Assembly (NCBI RefSeq): GCF_026151205.1 | Contig: NC_087074.1 | Span: 10,077,226 to 10,141,225, forward strand | Reading direction: 5' to 3' | DNA: 64,000 nucleotides | Source of the DNA: Bolinopsis microptera | Taxonomy: Eukaryota > Ctenophora > Tentaculata > Lobata > Bolinopsidae | In this document: positions 5,818 to 53,529 of the stretch, in pieces | Layout of the letters: each line of letters opens with the position of its first letter | Position numbering within the stretch: the stretch's first letter is position 1 | The notes under the pieces: generated by a model | Databases searched by the model: none | What the model saw: only the letters and a program-made list of their open reading frames with translations | What the model was told of the DNA's origin: nothing | Made by a program: the position numbers and the translations under genes

Positions 5818-7207
5818 ATGGTTAGACTTGGCTCAACTCCGGTGTTGGATTTTGGATCGTTTTCAGTGAAAGCAGGATTTGCTGGAGAATCCTACCCGAT
5901 CTTTGTTTTTACTAAAGAGCAGTTCTATCCTGAACCCTGGCCAATTGTCAGGGGTAAGATTGAGGATTGGAAGGTTATTGAACAGGTGAAGTAATACTCA
6001 TACTACTATAACTGTCTACAACTAGACAGTAGTTATTTACTACTACTGCTAGTATAGTTATTTACACTTATTCCGAATTTTGACACTGCTGTTTTAAGAG
6101 CTAAAAATTTACAGTAAAACGGGCATATTATTCCTCCACAAAAGCTATTCATCAAATTGCCTTTCGTCTCACACCAGTTTTCATCTGGGACAAAACTTCT
6201 AAAACCAGTTACTTACAGGTGATTCAATTTATTTGGAGCAAACTCAGAGTAGATCCATCAGAGGAGGAGGTTATCCTCGTGGAACATACCGGAACAACCC
6301 CTGAAGAGCACCGAAAGATGGAAATTCTCATGTTCGAGAAATTTAAAGTCCGCTATTTGACCTTTTTACCGGCCGCCCTTTGTGTCAGCCAAGCTTCAGG
6401 TGTCCCGACTGGTAATGACAAATAATTTGATTCAAATTTATTGGTAAATTTATATGGGCTAAAATCCTTGAAAACATTAAACGAACTGATGTCTGATATC
6501 ACGAAATGTTAACCGTTTAGAATACCATAAACATAATTGTCTAACATTACAGGAATCATGGTAAATTTCGGGCACGGAGTAACCAGAATCTCAGCAGTGA
6601 TAGACAACCTGACTACAAAGGAAATTCAAGTACCACTTGGAGGACAAGACTCAACAGCTCACCTCGCATCTTCTCTCCAATTAGATACCCGGAGCAACAG
6701 AATCTCGATGTTCATACACGTGAGATTAAAGAAAGACATTCTTTTGCTTCCCTCAACCCCGACTATGAAACTGCAGCTGTGGGAAGCTCTGCTAAGTCGT
6801 TCCAGAGGATCTACACAATGCCAAACGAGACACAGATTGTTTTAGATTGTGAACGAGCTAGCTGTATAGAGCCTATTTTTAGTACAGCCAAGGGAGACAA
6901 TGATGAGAGCGAAACTATTGCAAGTCTGATAAAACAGTTGATAAAATCATCTCCCGAAAAGTCAGTGGACCTCGCCCAAAACATTGTCATATGTGGTGGT
7001 CCCACGGAGTGTACAAACTTCAACTACAGACTTCTGTCAGAACTTTACAAGTGTAAAGCTGAGAAGATTGTTAGAATATTTTGTCCGCCCGAAAGACGTT
7101 TCACGTGTTGGGTTGGCGCGTCTGTTATTTACTTTGACGATGATTATGTCGACCAGGGGATGTCATTTAACGAATACAACTTCAAATATCTCCCGGCAGA
7201 ACAGTAG
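5818..7207 (+). CDS. Divergent actin-related protein, 3 exons, apparent frameshift in exon 3
   Basis: Actin fold ATPase family. Exons are 5818-5985, 6219-6411 and 6553-7207, all with GT-AG borders in matching phase. The start has a good context (GCCATGG). Exon 1 carries the phosphate-1 loop (DFGSFSVKAGFAGE, compare actin DNGSGLVKAGFAGD). Exon 2 matches the actin stretch around RVxPEEHPV (here RVDPSEEEVILVEHTG). Exon 3 has phosphate-2 GHGVTRIS, the LGGQDSTAHL counterpart of actin LAGRDLTDYL, then IVICGGPT and CPPERRFTCWVGASV. Total is about 338 residues against 375 in actin; the missing part is mainly subdomain 2 (DNase-I loop) after FAGE. In exon 3 the conserved frame switches near 6680: upstream homology ends at HLASSLQ and downstream homology (YPEQQNLDVHTREIKERH, then SFASLNPDYE) lies in another frame. 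This could be an assembly indel or a decaying gene. It may be an Arp10-like or orphan Arp; I cannot say which. Confidence 0.8.
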
Positions 7208-16438: not shown

Positions 16439-17955
16439 ACATTTCTATAACAGTTTTAATAGAGCTGCTGCTGCAGAGGAGCTAATCTTAATTTACAGTA
16501 ATCGCTTATTTCATGAGGTTGTAACGTTTGAAAGGACTTGGTTCTTGGAGCGCTGCCAGCCAGCGAGCTAGTTGACACAAGTGGACTGTAAATAATTTAC
16601 TATGGATTGTTTTGTTGCTTCGAGTTTTTGTGACCATACGGTGGAGTACTCAACTATTGTTTTATTTGAACTCTAAAACCTGATTGTAGGTAGATAGTTT
16701 GAGACTATACCATCCAATATCCCTCCACACTCCACAGGAACCAGTAAGTAACCAGGAACCAGTCTAAATCTACACACACATTCTTTCTTTTTTATCTACG
16801 CCAGCACAGTTTGAACTGTATCTGATGTGGATGTGAAATAACCCTACTTTCATATTATCCTTCAATGGAGACATTACAGCGAACTATCCCACGATAGCCC
16901 ACTGGTAAATCTCTCCCAATCGCTGCTAACCCACGCTTTACTGACTCATTACGGAGGGTGAAATTGTTCGGCAAAAAGTTTCGAAATTGTGGCGGAGTTA
17001 AACGAAATCACCAAGTACTGTACGGCGTCTGGCAAGCCAATAAGGCCAAACGATTATTTCTAAATTTTCAGCGTTTAAAGCATTAGCCCAGAGTTAGAAT
17101 GACTCTATCGCAAGGACATTAGCTATAAGGCTAACTGCAGTGCCAGTAGCCTAAAGGAGCGACTCTGTGGGAATTGAGAATAGTACTAGGTCTGAGGAAT
17201 TTTAAACAAGTAACAACTTCTGTGAGCTGACTCGACATAGGCTCCGAACTGGCTCCACAGTGGAGCTATCGGAATTTTGTGAAATGTACATCTTAGCAAC
17301 TTCAGATTAGATACAATTATTAACAATTCTCCCGTATTTCTGCTACTTGTTTTATATCAACTTCGTCACGTAGTATATAGATATACTAGCTGTGCACAAC
17401 AAGATTTTAACAATTTTTGACACGGTAATTTTATAGATCCGAACTTCTTTCACTTCATACTCATGCTTCTATCACGAACTCTAAGTTTTCTCGCTAGTCT
17501 AAGTTTTCACAGTTAACATTGCTGTATTAATAATACCAAGTAACTATCAAAGTGGTACAGACGCCGAAGTGCAGGTGGATTGTTTGAAAAGCACATACAT
17601 GTAAAAACATTTTAGAACTCAGTCAAGAAGTCGGTCAGTAGTTAGTGTGGAGCCAGTTTGGAGCCAATTTGAAGTCTGTCAAGACTCAAAGGTCAGTCAG
17701 GGGGCCAGCCAAGAGTCTATCAATAGCCAGCCAAGAGTCTACCAAGAGCCAGTTAAAAATCAATCTTCATCGAACTCATTAAAACTAAAGAGTCTGCAGT
17801 GAACCCAATGGTTCTCCCAGTAAATCCCGGTGTTGACGGTCGTGGGATCCAGATAACCGGACCGGAGAGAGATAGAGAGAGACAACCTCCAATAATTAGA
17901 GGTACAACACGTGCATCCTGACTACTTGAGGGCCTTCACCGTCTAGTTCACTCCA
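16439..17955. other. Convergent intergenic region
   Basis: Between the MFS stop and the presumed 3' end of the minus-strand receptor gene. No exon is supported. A loose tandem pattern of GCCAGCCAAGAGTCTA occurs near 17700-17755. Confidence 0.4.
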
Positions 17956-18444: not shown

Positions 18445-38068
<19,624 letters not shown>

Positions 38069-40189: not shown

Positions 40190-40705
40190 CGTGCTAAATC
40201 ATTTTACACTCGATCTTCGAGATTTTTCTACAAAGGCCTCCGACATAACTTCGAATTGACATACGTTGCATGCCACTTTTCGCGCGCGAAGCGCGCGCCG
40301 CCGAAGGCGGAATAATATCTCTGATATTTGTGATACGTAACATGTATCAAACTTCGAACTATTTTGGACGCTGATTCCGAATCACCCCCAAGACACATGG
40401 TTAAAATGCTCCCCTGGCAAAATATTGCCGAAAAACTGTTTTGATCACGTAGGCGTACGTGATAAGACCGTATAAGGAAGTTGGTATAATTTTTATTATA
40501 TTAGTGTTTGTTATATTAGGGTTAGGGTTTCAGCAAATAAAATGCTTTTCTTAGTATTGGGATTGGGTTAAGGTTTGGATCAAATTAGCTAGGGTCGGGT
40601 TAGGGTTTTGTACAGTCGTTCAGGGTACTCAGCTAGAAAACGGGTTGAAAAAGTTACGTTGTACGTGACAGTTGTGAGTTGAGTGTAGTTTGATTAATCA
40701 TCATC
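40190..40705 (+). repeat. Direct duplication, copy 1 (uninterrupted by the 5-kb transposon)
   Basis: Shares, in the same order, several stretches with 41140-41345 and 46351-47068: GTGCTAAATCA, TCGATCTTCGAGATTT, GGACGCTGATTCCGAATCAC, GACCGTATAAGGAAGTT, TTAGGGTTAGGG-like sequence, AACGGGTTGA and GATTAATCATCATCC. It lacks the 5-kb transposon that splits copy 2 and the 391-bp element at 46588, but has its own miniature insertion at 40256-40350. Confidence 0.75.
40256..40350. mobile_element. Miniature TTG...CAA element, 95 bp, 8-bp TSD ACTTCGAA
   Basis: Begins TTGACATACGTTGCATG and ends CATGTATCAA. Perfect duplications ACTTCGAA lie at 40248-40255 and 40351-40358. The interior holds GC-rich hairpins (TTCGCGCGCGAA, then GCGCGC, then CCGCCGAAGGCGG). 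No coding capacity, so it must depend on a transposase supplied elsewhere. It is closely related to the inverted copy at 47880-47982. Confidence 0.85.
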
Positions 40706-40734
40706 CAAAATATACATTAAATGCACGACTAAAA

Positions 40735-41123
40735 TTGTAGCGCGATGCGTTACTGTGCCGCGCCGCGCACTCAATAAGGCTTCTCTCGCTGGCTAGATCG
40801 GCGAGATGCGCTACTGTGCCGCGCCGAGCTGCCATGAATTGACATCGTCAATTAAGACTAAAAACATTGTTTATAATTTAAACAAATATTGAAATATTCG
40901 TAATGTGATATGGAAGACGTCGCGTCGGTTATTCGACTTGAAGAATGTTACTCGTCTAAATTTCTTCAAATTAGCGCGCGCCGCTTTCTTTTCGAAAATG
41001 GAAATGCAATTAATTGACGATGTCAATTCATCTCAGCTCGACGCGGCACAGTAGCGCATCTCGCCGATCTGTGAGAAGCCTCATTGAGTGCGCGGCGCAG
41101 CACAGTAACGCATCGCGCTACAA
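40735..41123. mobile_element. Foldback-type element, about 389 bp, arms of about 110 bp
   Basis: The left arm begins TTGTAGCGCGATGCGTTACT; the right arm ends in AGTAACGCATCGCGCTACAA. The arms pair over roughly 110 bp, with GCGAGATGCGCTACTGTGCC and AATTGACATCGTCAATT inside. Terminal TTGTAG/CTACAA resembles the TTG...CAA ends of the neighbouring miniature elements. I could not find a target duplication, so the exact ends are uncertain. Confidence 0.6.
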
Positions 41124-41139
41124 GAAAGGCAAGTGCTAC

Positions 41140-41345
41140 AAGTGTGCTAAATCACTCTACAGTCGATCTTCGAGATTTGGAGATTGTTCTAAAAGGGCCC
41201 AGGCCCCCGACAGTTGAAACCAACTACAATTGATGTACTTTCGGACGCTGATTCCGAATCACCCCCATGACATAAGTAATAGGGTTAAAATGCTTTGGCC
41301 CTTCACACAGCCATGTGTATACGCGTACTGCGTGACGCGCTTGTT
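41140..41345 (+). repeat. Direct duplication, copy 2, left portion
   Basis: Counterpart of 40190-40420; the copy is broken at 41345 by the 4997-bp transposon and resumes at 46351. It lacks the 95-bp miniature element of copy 1. Confidence 0.7.
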
Positions 41346-41828
41346 TAGGGACTACGGGTGGAAGATGAATAATTGATATTCCAACAGCATCTTGTTCCCT
41401 GCATTGTGCTGATCCCGGGAAGCATTTTGTTTACGCTCTCATCATTCTGTAGGATGAGATATCGTTCATTTAAAATTGGGTAATTATAAGCCTGTCAAGG
41501 ATTTCAGCCTAATTAAGAGCTGATCAATTGCAGCTAGTTGTGCCATATAAGGGATAACTGAGGTCACGTGACATTCAGTCCTATCACGTGACCGCTAATC
41601 CTATCACGTGACCTTGATTCGTAAAGCCTCGGGCACGTGATCACATTCGTAACGTGTCGTATGCCGACTAGAAGATTTTGTGACGTCACCAGAGCTGAAG
41701 CTACTTGATCAGGCCTTATATGGAATAATATCGTGTATCGGGTGTAATTGGACCCAATTAGAGCAGCTGAGCGCTCAATTATAGCAGCATCTGGTACCAC
41801 CTTCTGAAACCCAGCAGACAGCTGGCCC

Positions 41829-41910
41829 TTGTATCACGTTGCGACCCCCAACTGACGATACAGGGGGAGCCGCGCACTTCGTGCGCGGCGGGTCATACAA
41901 CGTATGACAA
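41829..41910. mobile_element. Miniature TTG...CAA element, 82 bp, inside the left arm; TSD GCTGGCCC
   Basis: Starts TTGTATCACGTTGCG and ends ACGTATGACAA. Perfect GCTGGCCC duplications lie at 41821-41828 and 41911-41918. The matching place in the right arm (45856-45863, GGGCCAGC once) is the uninterrupted site. The interior hairpin is CCGCGCAC, TTC-type loop, GTGCGCGG. Same family as 46588 and 47772 in the opposite orientation. Confidence 0.92.
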
Positions 41911-42700
41911 GCTGGCCCAGAGAATCGAAATTAGAAGGATTTTTTATTGATGGAAATCGAAGCGGAAACCTTGTAACCCTATGTTTTCGATGACGCCGAA
42001 CAAGATTAAACAGGTTATAATTGTCCTACTCTCGTGTAAATTGCTCTAAAACGTGATTGAAATTGTAATGATGCTATCAATTGTAATACAGTTTTTACAT
42101 TAAGCTGAACGGCTGGCATTCCTGGGCCGCACTCATCCCAGATTGTCATTCCGCCGCAGCTTCAATTTTTCTGAATATTACAGCCTGGGGTCCCCAGGTA
42201 ACGACTGGAACCACTATATCTGCCTAATCTCAGTTATTGTCAATAACGAAGCCTGTGATCCGCACATCAGTCATTGAATGGGCTTGAATTGAACGTCGTG
42301 TTATTACTTATTACTATAAAAAATATCATAGTATCGGGTAAATTTTTTCAAAATGCACTTGAATGTCATCAATTTGATTAAGTTATCATAAGTTGAATAG
42401 CTGGCGCATTTACAGTGCTACGTTTTCAATTATTCTACGAACACTTGGAATTAAAATCTATTTATATATATATTGCATTGTTTAATACTTATAATCAAGA
42501 TTGCTAAGTTCAGTGTGTGGATGAAGTATAGCGATGGAATCACTAACATATTTATGACTGTTTGATATTTCTTCGCTGCAGTCGCATATCATCCAGAGAA
42601 AGCTAATTTTAAAGAAGTAGTCTCGAAATTTTCGGGAATAAACTCAATATTGTGAAACATCATACAAAATATTATATAACGAGTGTTCTCTTTTAATAAA

Positions 42701-43723
42701 TCATTTCATTAGTTTTTTGAACTTCCTCTGCTTTCCTGGATTTTGTTGCCTCTCCTCAGAGACAACAATGTGGTGTCCTGCTTTCATGTCTTTGTTAGCA
42801 CACTTCAGCTTTGATTCTGTCATCAGTGCCACCGCTCTTTCGACTGCTTGCTGGTGGCAGGGATATTTCGTCACCAAAGGTGATTCTATGAACCTGTCGA
42901 ATTGATCAGGATCAGAGGGATGCACCCTTACTACCGATGGAATAGTGACTGCAGCCCACTTCAGCTCTTCTGAAATATAACTTGTTATCATAAACTTTCC
43001 TTTTTAAATTCAATACCATCCGTATTGTTTTCACTTTGACCTTATAGCTTTGAATACAAACGTATGTCAATCACTTTATAAATACAATAATATAATATTA
43101 ATAGTTACGTCATAGTAAATACAATTTGAAATGAACTTACTGCACGCAGTTCTGTAACAGAGACCAAATAAATGGTACGGTTTGAAAGACTTAGTCTTTC
43201 TCACCGGATCTTTATCCTCGATGTCAGTGTTGTAAATGACAAGGTCAAGGTACGATTTTGCATTTCTGTTAATCTCTGGCTTGCAAAATATCCGCGGTTT
43301 TCCATTCGGGCGTATTGTCCGGTTCATGCCCTTCTGCTCAAGTTCTATAAGCTGCCTGCAGAGAGCCACGCCTTTTTCCCGAACAGCTCTATCTGCGTCA
43401 CCTTGAGGAGTATTTTCATTCACATTTATTTAAAGGAACAGAACCAAAAGCGGGGACAAAGGTGAACAATTTAAATAACTAAACTGTAACAAGAGCTTCG
43501 TGACAACAAATATCCACTAAAATAAAACATGTACTAATTTCTCACCGAGACTGCAAACAATAATTGCTTCAGGATGAGCGAAGTAACTATTGTTACAAAC
43601 TTTCTTCAAAACTGCTGTTCGTTCTTTTGGCGAAAGTTGTATGTCATTATTGAGTGTGAGGCTTGTAAAAACATGATAAGCCCCATCCTCAATAAGAGGA
43701 CGCAGTTTGATCTGAGCGTGCAT
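42701..43723 (-). CDS. Transposon-encoded protein, 3 exons, probably truncated at its N-terminus
   Basis: Exons 43723-43546, 43401-43141 and 42969-42701 join in phase (1, 1) with GT-AG borders to give 235 residues from the first ATG. That ATG is immediately preceded by a good acceptor (AAATTTCAG), so the true protein probably extends into an upstream exon. Upstream there is only the pyrimidine-rich tract, so the 5' part seems lost. Motifs: NNSYFAHPEAIIVCSLGDAD in exons 1-2, then VREKGVALCRQLIEL; in exon 3 YPCHQQAVERAVALMTES. From memory, FAHPE plus CHxQxVERxVKxVTE patterns occur together in uncharacterised invertebrate proteins of mobile-element type; the HxQ/VER block might be part of an RNase-H-like transposase core. 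It lies between the long inverted repeats and is the only candidate transposase. Confidence 0.6.
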
Positions 43724-43780
43724 CTGAAATTTGAATGCTTGAGTAATGGTTTTCCTTGTGGCTCAAAAGAAAACTCAGTC

Positions 43781-44868
43781 CTCCTCCTCCTGGGTCCTCC
43801 TCCTCTTCTTCATCCTCTTCCTCCTCGGTCCTCAGTCCTCCTCCTCAGTCCTCCTCCTCATCCTTCTCATCAGTCCTCCTCCTCCTCAGTCCTCTCCCAG
43901 TCCCCCTCCTTCTCCTCCTCCTATTCAGTCCTCCTCCTCAGTTCTCCTCAGTCCTCCTTCTCATTTCTCCTAAGTCCTCCTCCTGAGTCCTCCTCCTCCT
44001 CTTCCTCCTGAGTCCTCCTCCTGAGTCCTCCTCCTCCTCCCTCTCAGCCATCCTCCTCAGCCATCCTCCTCAGCCATCCTCCTCAGTACTCCTCAGTCCT
44101 CCTCCTTCTCAGTCATCGTCAGTCCTCCTCCTCCTCCTCCTGGGTCCTCCTCCTGGGTCTTCCTGATCCTCCCCAGTCCTCTTCCTCCTCCCCTCCTCAG
44201 TCCTCCTCCTACTCCTCCTCCGTCCTCAACAGTCCTCCTCCTCCCCAGTCTTCCTCCTCCTCCTGGGTCCTCCTCCTCCTGGGTCCTCCTCCTCCTGGGT
44301 CCTCCTTCTCCTCCTCAGTCCTTCTCCTCCTCATCCTCAGTCCTCTTCCTCCTCTTCCTCCTCTTCCTCCTCCTCCTCCCTCTCAGTCATCCTCCTCAGC
44401 CATCCTCCTCAGCCATCCTCCTCAGTCCTCCTTCTCAGTCCTCCTCCTCAGTCCTCCTCCTCCTCAGTCATCCTCCTCAGTTCTCCTCCTCCTCCTCCTC
44501 CTAGGTCCTCCTTCTGGGTTCTCCTCCTCCTCCTCCTGGGTCTTCCTGATCCTCCTCCTCCCTCTCAGTCATCCTCCTCAGTCATCCTCCTCAGTCATCC
44601 TCCTCAGCCATCCTCCTCAGTCATCCTCCTCAGCCATCCTCCTCAGTACTCTTCAGTACTCTTCAGTCCTCCTCCTTCTCAGTCCTCCTCAGTCCTCCTC
44701 CTCCTCCTCCTGGGTCCTCCTCCTGGGTCTTCCTGATCCTCCCCAGTCCTCTTCCTCCTCCCCTCCTCAGTCCTCCTCCTACTCCTCCTCCTCGTCCTCA
44801 GTCCTCCTCATCAGTCCTCAACAGTCCTCCTCCTCCCCAGTCCTCCTCCTCCTGGGGCCTTTTCCTGG
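43781..44868. repeat. CCTCCT-rich pyrimidine tract, about 1.1 kb
   Basis: Strongly asymmetric plus-strand pyrimidine tract built of TCCTCC with recurrent CAGTCCTCCTCC, CTGGGTCCTCC and CAGCCATCC units; larger blocks recur (compare about 44090-44220 with 44670-44800). It occupies the place where upstream exons of the transposon gene would be expected. Open frames across it are low-complexity artefacts. Confidence 0.9.
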
Positions 44869-44986
44869 GTCCCTATATAATTTGATATAATAAGTTAAAG
44901 CTATTAATAGCTTTAGTGTGATTAATAAGTCGTTTGTTTTGTACAAAATTATAATACATAGAAGTTGCGAAAAATTCTCAAAATGT

Positions 44987-45132
44987 TTGTCCGCTAATGT
45001 CCACCAATGTCCGCTAATGTCCACCAATGTCCGTCTGAGTCCGCCAATGTCCGTCCGGGTCCGCAAATGTCCGTCCGAGTCCGCCGATGTCCGTCCGAGT
45101 CCGCCAATGTCCGTCCGTGTCCGCCAATGTCC
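44987..45132. repeat. 10/20-bp minisatellite
   Basis: Alternating decamers GTCCGCCAAT and GTCCGTCCGA, with an irregular left end of GTCCGCTAAT and GTCCACCAAT. Inside the 5-kb transposon. Confidence 0.85.
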
Positions 45133-45203
45133 CAAAAAACACGTCCGTTGTCTCATAGAATCCAAAAAGGACAGGACATAGGCGGACATAGACGGACGTG
45201 ACA

Positions 45204-45221
45204 CCCCCCCCCCCCCCCCCC
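45204..45221. repeat. Poly-C tract of 18 bases
   Basis: Run of C between the minisatellite and the right inverted-repeat arm. Confidence 0.9.
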
Positions 45222-46587
45222 TACATTGATTTTAGTTACGTTGCAATTTTACTCGACTCTTATCAGTTCACTTCTTATCAGCGCGATCGCAGTAAGTTTT
45301 ACTGTGTGCAACAGTTACATAACTGTATAATACACATAACATTAACTCTGTAATGCACTTCAAACTGCAGTATAAAGAGTACGCACTTCGCACAAATGAC
45401 AAGAAGGTAATCTAGTAATACGATTTTTGGTATTAATATCTTTAATATTAATAACACGGCTTGTTCGATTCAAGCCCGTTCAATGTGGTCAATACCTGAT
45501 GTGCGGATCACAGGCTTCGTTATTTACAATAGCTGAGATTAGGCAGATATAGCGGTTCCAGTCGTTACCTGGGGACCCCAGGCTGTAATATCCAGATAAA
45601 TTGAAGCTGCGGCGGAATGACAATCTGGGATGAGTGCGGCCCAGGAATGCCAGCCGTTACGCCGCTCAGCTTAATGTAAAAACTGTATTACAATTGATAG
45701 CATCATTACAATTTCAATCACGTTTTAGAGCAATTTACACGAAAGTAGGACAATTATAACCTGTTTAATCTTGTTCGGCGTCATCGAAAACATAGGGTTA
45801 CAAGGTTTCCGCTTCGATTTCCATCAATAAAAAATCCTTCTAATTTCGATTCTCTGGGCCAGCTGTCTGCTGGGTTTCAGAAGGTGGTACCAGATGCTGC
45901 TATAATTGAGCGCTCAGCTGCTCTAATTGGGTCCAATTACACCCGATACACGATATTATTCCATATAAGGCCTGATCAAGTAGCTTCAGCTCTGGTGACG
46001 TCACAAAATCTCCTAGTCGGCATACGACACGTTACGAATGTGATCACGTGCCCGAGGCTTTACGAATCAAGGTCACGTGATAGGATTAGCGGTCACGTGA
46101 TAGGACTGAATGTCACGTGACCTCAGTTATCCCTTATATGGCACAACTAGCTGCAATTGATCAGCTCTTAATTAGGCCGAAATCCTTGACAGGCCTATAA
46201 TTACCCAATTTTAAATGAACGATATCTCATCGATCCTACAGAATGATGAGAGCGTAAACAAAATGCTTCCCGGAATCAGCACAATGCAGGGAACAAGATG
46301 CTGTTGGAATATCAATTATTCATCTTCCACCCGTAGTCCCTACGCTTGTTTCACAAGTAGAATATACTTTCGGCGGTCGCGTGCTACTGCAAGCGAGAGG
46401 GCTCTAGTTAGAGCAACTATGGCCCTGACGAGATATTGGCGAAAATTGTCTCGATCAAGTGATATGACCGTATAAGGAAGTTAGTCTAATTTCTCGTGAA
46501 GGTTAAGGTTTCAGCATATGATTTTGTTAAGGCTAAGGATTGGGTTAGGGTTAGGGTTGGGATCAAATTAAAGGATTAGGGTTTCGA

Positions 46588-46978
46588 TTGTCATACGTTG
46601 TATGACCCGCCGTGCACGAGTGCGCGGCTCCCCTGTATCGCAGGAACTCTACTATAGTGTTGACCATTGTTAATGATCAGGCCCGGCGTGCGCTACTTCC
46701 TAGCACTTGCTTGGAGGACTTCGCCGCTTCGACGCGCCGCGCGAACTAGCATTCTTGCTTACTAGCATTCTTGCAACTAGCATTCTTGCATTCTTGCTTA
46801 CGACGATCGTTGCTCTGCTTCGCAGAGCAACGATCTCGACGGATTGACATCGTCAATCAAAGCACTTGCCATCGGGCCATTTCGAGAAGAAAGCGGCGCG
46901 CGCTACTTCAAAGAAATTTAGATGAGTAACATCCGTCAACTATAGTGAAGCGACAGTGGGAGTCACCACGTGATACAA
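46588..46978. mobile_element. Miniature TTG...CAA element, 391 bp including a nested copy; TSD GGTTTCGA
   Basis: Begins TTGTCATACGTTGTATGA and ends CCACGTGATACAA. Perfect GGTTTCGA duplications lie at 46580-46587 and 46979-46986. Without the nested 280-bp element and its duplicated 8 bases it would be 103 bp, close to the 100-bp copy at 47772-47871. Contains the CCGCCGTGCACGAGTGCGCG hairpin region. Confidence 0.9.
46660..46939. mobile_element. Nested miniature element, 280 bp; TSD CTATAGTG
   Basis: Inserted inside the 391-bp element. Starts TTGACCATTGTTA, ends TAACATCCGTCAA. Perfect CTATAGTG duplications lie at 46652-46659 and 46940-46947. The interior includes a perfect palindrome (about 46804-46834, GATCGTTGCTCTGC and its complement around TTC), repeated CTAGCATTCTTGC units and GATTGACATCGTCAATC. 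Confidence 0.88.
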
Positions 46979-47069
46979 GGTTTCGAATAATCGTTCAGGA
47001 CCAGCTAGAGAACGGGTTGAGAAAGTCACGTGACAGTCGAGTGTAGAGTGATTAATCATCATCCCAAGT

Positions 47070-47763
47070 GCTACGAAGTAGCGCGCGCCAGGTTGGTCCA
47101 TTAACAATAGTTAATGATTTGTCATTATTCGTCGTACCGCAGATTATTAATATGGGGCGCTATTATGTATTACAAATTATATATATATAACTTAAAATCT
47201 TTGGTCACAAGAGCAACTGCCTAAACGTGCAGAAGTGAAAACAAATAAATAAAAATATACTAGCAGTCCTTAATACAGTCCCTAATACTCGTAATATAAT
47301 AAATAGATTCATTCAATGTCATAAAACTCTTAACCATACACGTGACCAGTAAAATAATTTAATTGGTCTATTATATAGACTACTGTGTAAAATTCTCAAT
47401 ATAAACTTTTTTAACAATAATGAATAATAAATTAATTTAAAAAACACACCAACCTTTGGTGTGTAAGAATGATTAAACAACCTTTATTTGACATAAAATA
47501 TCTTTCAGAATATTATATTAGTATATGCTATAATATTAAAACTGTTTATCAGAGTTCAGGTAATAGAATTTAACTGTAATGGCACCTTTACAGTATTATC
47601 CATTGTTGAGACAAATTAGATGTTGACCGTTCTGTATACATGCTTGCACGTGTTTTTTATGAGTAAGCTGTGAAATTGTAATAGTAAGCTATACCAATTG
47701 TGTATTTAGACGCTGACTTTCGAATAAAATATATTACATAGCATGAAAATAATTTCTTGGCGA
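47070..47763. other. AT-rich spacer, nothing recognised
   Basis: No coding segment, target duplication or organised repeat was seen between the duplicated block and the next miniature elements. Confidence 0.4.
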
Positions 47764-47771
47764 GTTATGAT

Positions 47772-47871
47772 TTGTCATACGTTGTATGACCCGCCGCGCA
47801 CGAGTGCGCGGCTCCCCTGTATCGTAGAAACTCTCTAGTGAAACGACGATGGGGATCACGACGTGATACAA
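47772..47871. mobile_element. Miniature TTG...CAA element, 100 bp; TSD GTTATGAT/GTTATGAG
   Basis: Starts TTGTCATACGTTGTATGACC and ends CACGACGTGATACAA. The flanking octamers (47764-47771 and 47872-47879) differ at one base. The right octamer is shared with the next element, which begins at 47880. Confidence 0.85.
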
Positions 47872-47879
47872 GTTATGAG

Positions 47880-47982
47880 TTGATACATGTTTCGTATCCA
47901 AATATCAGAGATATTATTATTATTTTTCCGCCTTCGGCGGCGCGCGCTTCGCGCGCGAAAAGTGGCATGCACCGTATGTCAA
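47880..47982. mobile_element. Miniature TTG...CAA element, 103 bp; TSD GTTATGAG
   Basis: Starts TTGATACATGTTTCGTATCC and ends GCACCGTATGTCAA. Perfect GTTATGAG duplications lie at 47872-47879 and 47983-47990. It is the inverted relative of 40256-40350, with the same GCGCGC and CCGCCTTCGGCGG hairpins. Back to back with the 100-bp element, sharing its target octamer. Confidence 0.9.
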
Positions 47983-48575
47983 GTTATGAGCATGTTTGAT
48001 GTTGGATGTTTGAGAAAATAATCATTTTGTTAGACGCGCGCAAGTGACAAGCTTGTAAAATTATATTTGAGCTGTTTATGCTTTAAGATTCGAATTAGTT
48101 TTGGTTTCAAAGTAATTGTGAAGATTATACAAAGATTTGAAGTACAAAGTTGTGCACCTTAACTTTAAATACTTGTACTTACCATTAAAATCGAAATCAG
48201 CATTTACAAGTTTCCTGTGCCGCCTTCGGTGGTGCGTTCTAATGCAAGCGGAACGGCTTTGGTACGGTTGAGCAAGCTTTTTTCTGTTTCTTTTGAAATT
48301 AAATTTATCATTTATAGTTGTTTCTAATAGAGAAATTATCGTCCTTTTAAATTTTTAGGATATGTTCCAGGATAATTCGCAATTCGGGTGATACTCGTAA
48401 AATATGGGTTTCAACTCAGCGCGAGTTTTGGTAGGTTATAAATCTTCAAGTTCTAGGAATTATTTAGAATAGATCAATCAAGGCGAATTGCGAGATAGCC
48501 CCAAAATGCAAAAGCAGCTGATAAACATCACTCCTATGATCTTTATTGAGCAAAAATAACTGTAAGGCCTTTAAC

Positions 48576-48826
48576 CTGGGGTCTCCAGGCTATTATGTTC
48601 ATAGATTCGGCGGAATGACAGGCTGAGCGCCGCCCAGTAAAAGGCCTTCTACTGTTTATCACAAACAACTGTAAAGTCAATTTGGAGAAAATTCTCGTGA
48701 AGACCCCCAGCCCCTATTTAACTTTATTTGGGGCTTCTTATTACTGGGCCGCGCTCAGCCTGTCATTCCGCCTAATCTCTATTCTATGTTTACCAACATT
48801 AAAGCCTGGGGTCCTCAGGTAAGCTT
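48576..48826. repeat. Foldback sequence related to the inner arm of the 5-kb transposon
   Basis: Inverted arms (about 48576-48656 and 48742-48826) share CCTGGGGTC, GGCGGAATGACAGGCTGAGC and GCCCAGTAA around a spacer of about 85 bp. The order CTGGGCCGC...GTCATTCCGCC...GCCTGGGGTCCCCAGG also occurs at 42138-42205 in the large transposon, so the two are probably related modules. Confidence 0.7.
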
Positions 48827-48850
48827 CTTATTGATTCCGTTTTTCTTACG

Positions 48851-49040
48851 AGAAATTTTATTTCGCCACTTACGCCACTTTTTTTTCGCCACTGCTTCTT
48901 GACCTCTCATCTATAGGGGGCATCATTATTCACATCCTTCAAATTTTATTTCGCCACTTACGCCACTTTTTATTTCGCCACTGCTTCTTGACCTTTCATC
49001 TACTAGGGGGCATCGTTATTCACCTCCCTCAAATTTTCAG
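48851..49040. repeat. Tandem duplication of about 95 bp
   Basis: Two copies of a unit beginning AAATTTTATTTCGCCACTTA and containing GCTTCTTGACCT and GGGGGCATC, differing by a few bases; a third AAATTTT closes the block. Confidence 0.85.
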
Positions 49041-49402
49041 CATCTAATTGCACGATGACCCTGAGCAATTATGTCTCGTGTGCACTCATGTCTCCGTTTG
49101 TATCTTCATTGCTTCAGGGACACTGGGCAACATGTTAATATGTGCTTTAAGTCTAACTGCTGGCGTCTGCACAGTGGACAGTTGTTCGATAGCTAATTCC
49201 TATTTTTTCTTCAGCTCTTGTGCTACCCATATTAAAGTCACCAATTTTAGATGAACGTTAGCCTTGAAGCTTATCTAGCAGGAACCCGTCTAACCCTAAA
49301 GTGGTGTCAAACCTCAAGAGACTAAAATAATTATTACCTATTCAATTCGCGTTTTTGACACCACTTGGGAGTCTTAATTTTGAGCACTACAATCCTTATT
49401 CC

Positions 49403-49437
49403 TTGACATACGTTGCATGCCACTTTTCGCGCGCCAA
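49403..49437. mobile_element. 35-bp TTG...CAA element; TSD CTTATTCC
   Basis: Only TTGACATACGTTGCATG, a CCACTTTTCGCGCG core and a terminal CCAA remain, yet it is flanked by perfect CTTATTCC duplications (49395-49402, 49438-49445). It looks like an extreme deletion form of the 95-103 bp elements, and abuts the 3' tail of the LINE. Confidence 0.75.
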
Positions 49438-49445
49438 CTTATTCC

Positions 49446-52203: not shown

Positions 52204-53030
52204 GGCCACAGGGGGGGGTCCGAGGTCAATTTTGAGATTTTGAGATATGTTGTAGAGCTCGATCTAAATTTTCAAATGCTTTTGTCCTTACTGAAAACAA
52301 AGTTTCCTATTTGAAGATATCGCGCGTTGAATTTTGAGGTTTACCTGTAATTCTATTGTAAATGAAAACTTTAAATGCAATTGTGTTCAAAATCTATCTT
52401 CTTTTTTAGTTTATGACTTAGAACCTTGTAACTTGCCAACAATGTTCTTAAAGGTATTTTGAGTTTTTGTTATGTAACGATTTATGATATCTTGCTCCAA
52501 AGCTGAGATATGAGGTTAACCATGAGTGAGAATTACAAAATTTACAAAATTTAAAATGGTTAACCTCATAAAAAGAGTTAGGAGCAAAATTACAACAATC
52601 GTTACATAACAAACTTTTAAATTTATGTCAGGAACATAAGTTCCAAATTTGAGGTGAAATGGATAAAAGCTCTAGGAGAAGATAGGTTTTTGAGGTGGTA
52701 AATAAATTGTTCAGGAGAGTCAAAAGACCATGATTCTGAGAAAATATGTTAACCTCAATTTTCCAACAAATAAAGGACATATTTAATAGTTCTGTTCACA
52801 TTGGATGGCCAATTGATACCCATTAATAAGTTTAACTTGTGACGAGAGCAACAAAATGTTAAGAACTGGTTATTTGTGAGGTTAACTGATTAAAAAGGCA
52901 ATAGTTAACCTCAATTTTACGACAAACTAGGCGCTCTGGGGGGCTAAGGGTGGTGTGCAAGCGTCAGATAGTACGTGGTCTGCCAACTGGCAAAAGACTT
53001 TTTTTCGACCTCGGACCCCCCCCTGTGGCC
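52204..53030. mobile_element. 827-bp non-autonomous DNA transposon, TTAA target, 24-bp perfect TIR
   Basis: Perfect 24-bp inverted ends start GGCCACAGGGGGGGGTCCGA and lie directly inside TTAA duplications (52200-52203, 53031-53034). A TTAA target suggests the piggyBac or Sola3 superfamilies; the ends alone do not decide. The interior is non-coding, with about five copies of GAGGTTAAC in both orientations and an inverted pair around TTGTTATGTAACGAT (about 52466-52503 and 52580-52617). Taking it out leaves the LINE frame continuous. No transposase is encoded. Confidence 0.92.
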
Positions 53031-53034
53031 TTAA

Positions 53035-53529
53035 CAGTTCCACTAAGCCAAGATACATTTGGTAAATTTAAATCTCCAACTAGGATTGATTCAACATTAA
53101 AAACAGCTAGTTTTGCAATCATTTTGGTCATCGCATTGTTCTGCGCTTTAGAAAGAGACATTGATCTATAAATACATGCAATATTTACCCTACCAATGTT
53201 GCTATCGAATTCAACAGCAATCGAATCAGTGACCCTAAACCAATCTATAACAACTGGGTTCAAAGAGTCTTTAATATAAATAATACAGCCTCCACCACTA
53301 CTAACAGAACTTTCTCCTACTTCTTCATTAACTGTAAAATCTCTATCTTTTCTAAATATTTTGAAACCAGGTATGCTAATTTCAGCATCAATAATTTCAT
53401 TGTTAAAATGAGTTTCATTTATGCAAACAATGTCAGACTGGTACAGCGAAACAGCATTTCTCAATTCACAAAACTTATTATATAAACTATTACTGTTACT
53501 ATAAAACAATTTAAGGTTTAGGCATTCTA
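53035..53529 (-). CDS. LINE ORF2, first part: APE-type endonuclease
   Basis: Shows the early catalytic blocks of the APE fold: SNSLYNKFCELR, the Glu of DIVCINETHF, SGGGCIIYIKDS, and VGDLNLPNVSW (GDLN). The remaining SDH block lies beyond the 827-bp insertion. The frame starts within or next to the ORF1 stop codon and I see no ATG in this frame before the conserved region, so ORF2 may be translated by reinitiation or another non-standard route, or the ATG has been lost. Confidence 0.85.

Follow-up and report, generated by a model that had tools for sequence, protein, structure and literature searches.

Miniature elements in the genome of the ctenophore Bolinopsis microptera: probable families of non-autonomous DNA transposons with one palindromic end architecture

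The stretch of DNA considered here (the window) is 64,000 nucleotides long, comes from the ctenophore Bolinopsis microptera (contig NC_087074.1, C3:10077226-10141225) and belongs to a genome of 264.65 Mb in 232 contigs. Between 40 and 49 kb of the window lies a cluster of short elements that begin with TT, end with AA and are flanked by direct repeats of 8 or 9 bp; some stand alone, some adjoin and some lie inside one another (Table 1). An earlier reading of the window, made from its letters alone (the sequence-only reading), had named seven of them as a single family of TTG...CAA elements. All seven were found where it had placed them, with perfect flanking octamers in six and 7 of 8 positions matching in the element at 47772-47871 (GTTATGAT/GTTATGAG). 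A scan of the window for TTG...CAA spans of 30-400 bp with exact flanking octamers returned 7 matches, against 0 or 1 in each of 50 Markov shuffles; these are the six elements named earlier and one more at 17658-17745. Against an expectation of 0.30, the window contains 5 occurrences of the sequence CATACGTTG. The idea of a single family was not borne out, and by their ends the seven copies sort into family A (starting at 41829, 46588 and 47772), family B (40256, 47880 and 49403) and family C (46660). Seven also proved too low a count for the cluster, in which the elements at 40735-40855, 41010-41123, 48572-48640 and 48741-48822 had been overlooked. In the interval 40256-48822, 11 elements are complete and have duplications with no more than one mismatch, a count that leaves out one scan row spanning two elements; the 35-bp copy is additional.

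Table 1. Elements of the 40-49 kb cluster and the large inverted-repeat element among them (positions in the window).
Element	Position	Strand	Length (bp)	Flanking duplication (length, bp)	Remarks
B	40256..40350	+	95	ACTTCGAA (8)	ends B1 and B2 exact
D	40735..40855	+	121	GACTAAAA (8)	
D	41010..41123	-	114	GAAATGCAA/GAAAGGCAA (9, one mismatch)	
A	41829..41910	-	82	GCTGGCCC (8)	inside left arm of the 5-kb element
A	46588..46978	+	391 with insert, 103 without	GGTTTCGA (8)	
C	46660..46939	+	280 with insert, 121 without	CTATAGTG (8)	inside the A element
E	46711..46860	-	150	AGCACTTGC (9)	inside the C element
A	47772..47871	+	100	GTTATGAT/GTTATGAG (8, one mismatch)	
B	47880..47982	-	103	GTTATGAG (8)	adjoins the A element 47772-47871
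G	48572..48640	-	69	AAGGCCTT (8)	
G	48741..48822	+	82	GCTTCTTA (8)	
B-derived	49403..49437	+	35	CTTATTCC (8)	right end only CAA
5-kb inverted-repeat element	41346..46342	.		CGCTTGTT (8)	ends TAGGGACTACGGG

Several of these elements can be compared with the site that they occupy. Opposite the A insertion at 41829-41910, the right arm of the 5-kb inverted-repeat element carries GCTGGCCC once and uninterrupted, as an empty site. The 391-bp element of the sequence-only reading exists as a span, but it is an A element carrying a C element, which in turn carries an E element; each host in this three-level nesting (46588-46978) is complete once its insert is removed, and the A and C hosts without their inserts fall within the sizes of their own families. 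The neighbouring A and B elements at 47772-47871 and 47880-47982 share the target octamer GTTATGAG, and at another sampled locus (L057, 882-1184) an A and a D element adjoin at one common octamer, GGGACCTC, as if the second element of each pair had used the target duplication of the first as its target.

The sequence-only reading had also suggested a genome-wide search for such ends and for longer members. The A1 and B1 left ends proved abundant, with 3,520 matches at up to one mismatch and 0 in a reversed-pattern control (100 of these places were listed), and exact B2 ends number 446 (control 0). At least seven end-pair types are present, namely A, B and C, together with D, E, G and H from sampled loci, and these provide 13 end types; D, E and G were found by scans of loci without a palindrome criterion, and H with one. 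The exact A1 and B1 patterns have 0 matches in viral contigs and the exact G2 pattern 0 in prokaryote genome contigs, neither of these being a collection of eukaryotic genomes.

The length of the flanking repeat was taken from a pairing blind to the duplication, in which family-specific ends were joined by position to the nearest partner, 30-450 bp apart and with at most 3 mismatches. Among the 149 end pairs so obtained, the exact duplication is 8 bp long in 62, 9 bp in 24 and 5 bp in 1, with none of 6, 7, 10 or 11 bp. The 8-bp length proposed earlier stands for the seven original copies but not in general, where it is 8 or 9 bp. The exact cases of 8 and 9 bp number 28 and 2 in A, 6 and 0 in B, 5 and 3 in C, 4 and 8 in D, 4 and 6 in E, 10 and 2 in G, and 5 and 3 in H; A and B are nearly all of the 8-bp kind, and 9 bp is commoner in D (8 of 12) and E (6 of 10). 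Target preference is weak and symmetric, with A five bases and Y (a pyrimidine) three bases outside the duplication, as seen in the exact 8-bp cases only.

The octamers themselves are diverse. Exact octamers flank 79 of the 93 elements shorter than 450 bp, at least two of these entries being the same copy met again in overlapping loci; 77 octamers are distinct as read and 75 after strand symmetrisation. Three recur: CCGCCGAA belongs to one copy in overlapping loci, GGAACTGT to two near-identical copies at two places, and GGGACCTC to two adjoining elements. Of the 30 loci taken at the beginning of chromosome C1 (L009-L038), 13 show the exact octamer a second time, following an ...AA end no more than 1.5 kb away, and the octamers of these 13 are all different, bar one pair of near-identical copies; the other loci show one mismatch, a 9-bp repeat (L031) or no partner that could be found. 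The sequence-only reading had taken the octamers for target duplications and had named constant octamers as the observation that would speak against this; with 75 distinct octamers among 79 exact entries, its interpretation is upheld. One family with constant octamers, which had been considered as a candidate, is ruled out by this diversity and by the several end types.

All 13 end types start with TT, and their sequences otherwise differ between families. In 12 of the 13, the TT is followed by a 17-bp imperfect palindrome of the form 7-3-7, centred at base 11, in which at least 5 of the 7 arm pairs are complementary (10 of 11 end types when H1 and H2 are left out). Mean arm complementarity over the 13 end types reaches 0.79 when the palindrome is centred at base 11 and lies at 0.13-0.37 for the other tested centres; 2,000 shuffles, with the maximum taken over centres 10-15.5, did not exceed 0.49. 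The 13 types are partly dependent, in that many have a GTT or GAT spacer and the types of one family are possibly related. A control set was drawn, with two minisatellite regions of the window masked, from 184 TT..AA pairs with exact 8- or 9-bp repeats, of which 112 with a known end were excluded. At least 6 complementary pairs at centre 11 were seen in none of the remaining 72 and 5 pairs in one, and no further TT..AA family with an excess of palindromes was found among these 72 unknown-end pairs of sampled DNA. The terminal inverted repeats are short and imperfect. When the two ends are compared over the 11 bases that follow TTG, most A, B and C copies have 6-8 in common, one long D copy has all 11 and E only 4. 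As had been noted earlier, the 5-kb element has other ends (TAGGGACTACGGG, with CGCTTGTT as its duplication), and another transposase is therefore implied.

Between such ends, the centres are highly variable. In thirty distinct A copies no centre is repeated, the 30 centres being 21-126 bp long, and pairwise identity is 96% over the first 30 nucleotides and 83% over the last 30. The B elements below 450 bp (n=10) measure 35-172 bp; the short ones have no centre, and the one of 172 bp contains another end type. When exact B1 and B2 ends within 0-7.2 Mb of C1 are paired by end coordinates, with duplications verified for part of the pairs, the spacings are 49, 57, 57, 58, 71, 71, 84, 87, 97 and 102 bp and, among long members, 1,280, 3,512, 4,777 and 5,331 bp. 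Among the 93 elements below 450 bp, 79 are of 150 bp or less and 77 of 130 bp or less, and copies as short as 35 and 44 bp have exact duplications. Interior palindromes with arms of at least 6 bases number 49 distinct sequences, 29 of them with loops of 2-4 bases and some of them being the ends of nested elements; in 20 of the regions sampled, the commonest three-base loop is GAA (6 of 30). Single strands of A (a composite of several copies), B and H fold better than their shuffles (z of -3.9, -2.9 and -3.1), and G folds no better than its own (z -0.7, with 46 of 200 shuffles as good).

Target duplications, terminal inverted repeats and short, non-coding sequence in high copy number are together the marks of miniature inverted-repeat transposable elements (MITEs), and all of them are found here, which supports the earlier proposal of miniature transposable elements. 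The elements very probably represent several families of non-autonomous cut-and-paste DNA transposons of this type with one common end architecture, and they are presumably moved in trans. One group of related DDE/D transposases would act on all families, each end being bound by a dimer on the palindrome, and the enzyme would excise the element and join it to a target with a stagger of 8 or 9 bp. Repair of the gap left by excision could then stop short and rejoin in mid-element, so that the centre would be shortened or rearranged and both ends kept; copies would shrink to 35-60 bp because interrupted gap repair removes the centre. The variable centres are accordingly read here as the outcome of interrupted gap repair with foldback joining. 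If the reading as families of mobile MITEs is true, it explains the mosaic of nested short palindromes in the cluster, and one end architecture with an interchangeable palindrome joins MITE families that could hardly be linked by sequence comparison. The same architecture would provide a rule for locating the transposase, and natural minimal transposons of 35 and 44 bp would inform how little DNA a eukaryotic transposase requires.

A number of observations weigh against this reading. No exact duplication of 5-11 bp accompanies 62 of the 149 end pairs, some of which may be ends of different insertions and others old copies. The E2 end lacks the palindrome (2 of 7 arm pairs), H1 and H2 are not independent support because they were found through a palindrome filter, and the 35-bp copy at 49403-49437 has a single intact palindromic end. 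The end types are not fully separate, since D2 and E1 differ by 2 mismatches in 19; because these two are nearly identical, families D and E are related. The sampled loci, mostly from chromosome C1 near A or B ends and from the window, are a non-random sample. An autonomous member was not found by searches for transposase domains and long elements, in which the ends of most candidate families were left unread.

Long members with B ends do exist, but none of those read has a recognisable transposase of its own. The 4,777-bp element L040 (95-4871 of its locus, duplication CTAAAATT) is a foldback element with 331-bp tandem units in inverted arms; it was rejected as an autonomous element, no transposase-like frames being seen by eye. 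Bases 1-1073 of the 1,280-bp element L055 are matched at 90-98% in 11 other places, and in part at more. A larger relative of this group, the 3,512-bp element L067 (duplication GCGCGATG), contains 4.3 copies of a 91-bp tandem unit, which many places in the genome carry, and an interior matched over 1,261-1,293 bp at 96-100% identity in 11 other places; because of this identity over about 1.3 kb, the large B-ended elements were probably amplified recently. Besides L067, these large elements include C2:5780740, C13:3002126, C3:12982250(-) and C10:10658778(-). Large copies of the L067 type carry broken pieces of a hAT-like gene, collinear with the hAT gene of locus L060 (domain PF05699) and 68-85% identical to it in amino acids (aa) in the three longest matches; one piece of 69 aa is 84% identical. 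The link to hAT is drawn from this comparison with L060, as Pfam searches gave no hAT family for the L067 pieces and no match at all for four other L067 frames, and PDB searches gave no hAT match for three L067 pieces. No counterpart to the dimerisation region of L060 was found in L067-L069, and the B-ended hAT-like copy, as read here, switches frame. With its hAT-like gene broken, the L055/L067 group was rejected as autonomous. Two further candidates fell away: C4:8012580 is a coincidence, being a 105-bp A element, and C1:3619097-3624427 (L074; 5,331 bp by end coordinates) shows, over the 451 bp that were read, a tandem repeat with 3.0 copies of a 61-bp unit and no coding sequence.

The source of the transposase can be weighed against what is known of superfamilies with similar duplications. 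The elements might be hAT MITEs, with the large B-ended element and its hAT-like gene as the autonomous member, since hAT elements, like P elements, make duplications of about 8 bp (PMC3706591). The length agrees in 62 of the 86 exact 8- or 9-bp cases, the other 24 having 9 bp, and pieces matching the L060 gene lie in large B-ended elements at L067 and 11 other places. Duplications of 9 bp are untypical of hAT elements, and L060 itself has, on the one side examined, a classical CAAGGGTCGACCGAG hAT end and no TT-palindrome. The three hAT groups that could be read, from at least 150 hAT matches, have classical CA.. ends, unlike TT-palindromes: CAGTAA, CAGTGG and CAGGGG/CAAGGG, read as CAGTAAWCGACCGG, as CAGTGGCGTAACG (one end seen) and as CAGGGGTCGACCG/CAAGGGTCGACCG. 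This last pair of ends, together with 8-bp duplications and a retained C-terminal hAT domain, also marks the small hAT-derived elements L062-L066 (about 0.9-1.5 kb). Because of the CAAGGG end of L060, the frame switch and the unmatched dimerisation region, the hAT gene in L067 is probably a passenger, though it may be a decayed native gene, and a hAT origin of the small elements is unlikely. Merlin (IS1595-like) MITEs are an improbable explanation too, even with duplications of 8 or 9 bp, the very mixture found here, and with 58 Merlin transposase domain matches in the genome, many in open frames of 295-337 aa, which fall into several groups of equal score. Merlin termini begin with GG in the families of the cited paper and, according to it, in all other Merlins (PMC8101967), against TT in all 13 end types; no Merlin ends were read from this genome. 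Both hAT and Merlin fit poorly because their ends differ. PF12017 (P-type) and PF18758 (KDZ/Zisupton) gave no match in the genome, with control genomes equally without a match.

Among possible sources of the transposase, a Mutator-like enzyme and an undescribed superfamily rank highest, each of them tentatively. Under the former, the small elements would be non-autonomous Mutator-like elements (MULEs) with large foldback or minisatellite relatives. MULE duplications of 8-11 bp include both lengths found here, and a minisatellite is part of the MULE Rehavkus (PMC6446971). Matches to the MULE domain number 88 in the genome, some of them in open frames near 500 aa, and the three longest B-ended elements examined carry tandem arrays, with units of 331 bp (L040), 91 bp (L067) and 61 bp (L074). 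Against this possible but doubtful origin, TT-palindrome ends were not found to enclose any MULE gene, no MULE termini having been read, and for the B1 end on C1 that has a MULE match 6.7 kb away, the matches listed include no exact B2 end between 4.58 and 5.92 Mb. An undescribed superfamily, which may be entertained with similar reserve, would have a transposase that recognises a full dimer site at each end (the 7-3-7 palindrome, set at a constant interval from TT) and makes an 8- or 9-bp stagger, and elements of 35-60 bp, which amount to hardly more than a pair of binding sites or even a single one, would still move. It is hardly credible, finally, that the octamers belong to the repeats or that these are immobile hairpins or other structures. 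The elements are rich in further short-loop palindromes, and there are the end pairs that lack an exact duplication; on the other side stand the distinct octamers, the empty site, the three-level nesting and exact duplications that are 8 or 9 bp long and never 6, 7, 10 or 11. Octamers as part of the repeat are refuted by the data.

Some further features of the window deserve mention. The 5-kb inverted-repeat element has a CT-rich minisatellite centre (about 43770-44890) and a G-like copy in each arm (42119-42201 and 45565-45647), which probably predates the duplication of the arms because it is present in both. Just to the right of the cluster lies an 822-aa reverse transcriptase frame (PF00078; 49682-52150, minus strand), with an Exo_endo_phos match upstream on the same strand (52967-53509), and the two are probably parts of a non-LTR (long terminal repeat) retrotransposon. 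An actin match is located at 6779-7204, and a tandem array of ATTTCAACTCCCTGC..., with a unit of about 49 bp by eye, extends over about 21715-22790 and mimics direct repeats in scans. The window has no match to RNA families at gathering thresholds.

Generic MITEs with 8-bp duplications ('DNA8' in the style of Repbase) are short and non-coding, with inverted ends and high copy number. As such elements are generally described, those of Bolinopsis are set apart by having, in several families with unlike end sequences, a common 7-3-7 palindrome at a constant distance from the terminus, and by a mixture of 8- and 9-bp duplications. In a literature search that lay outside Repbase and most subscription papers, neither the A1 13-mer nor a matching family was found among the matches listed. 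The CMITE elements of coral resemble those described here in their length of about 100 bp, their many copies and their division into several families with unlike ends; they differ in being flanked by TTAA duplications, in having ends like those of piggyBac and in a centre that is conserved, where the present elements have 8- or 9-bp duplications of varied sequence, TT-palindromes and a variable centre (PMC2872659). Merlin and IS1595 are alike in duplication length and unlike in their GG termini (PMC8101967), and MULEs, with Rehavkus, are alike in duplication length and minisatellite, with no MULE gene linked to the ends found here (PMC6446971). Complete copies of Tetris, a foldback element of Drosophila virilis for which a transposase was not found, are flanked by duplications of 8-9 bp; Tetris has tandem repeats in inverted arms and resembles the 4,777-bp B-ended element; the likeness is one of description and not of end sequences, and the available part of the report describes no small families with palindromic ends (PMC4079207). 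In general kind, the elements of Bolinopsis are ordinary MITEs, and what is unusual in them is their consistent end design, their mixed 8- and 9-bp duplications and their extreme shortness.

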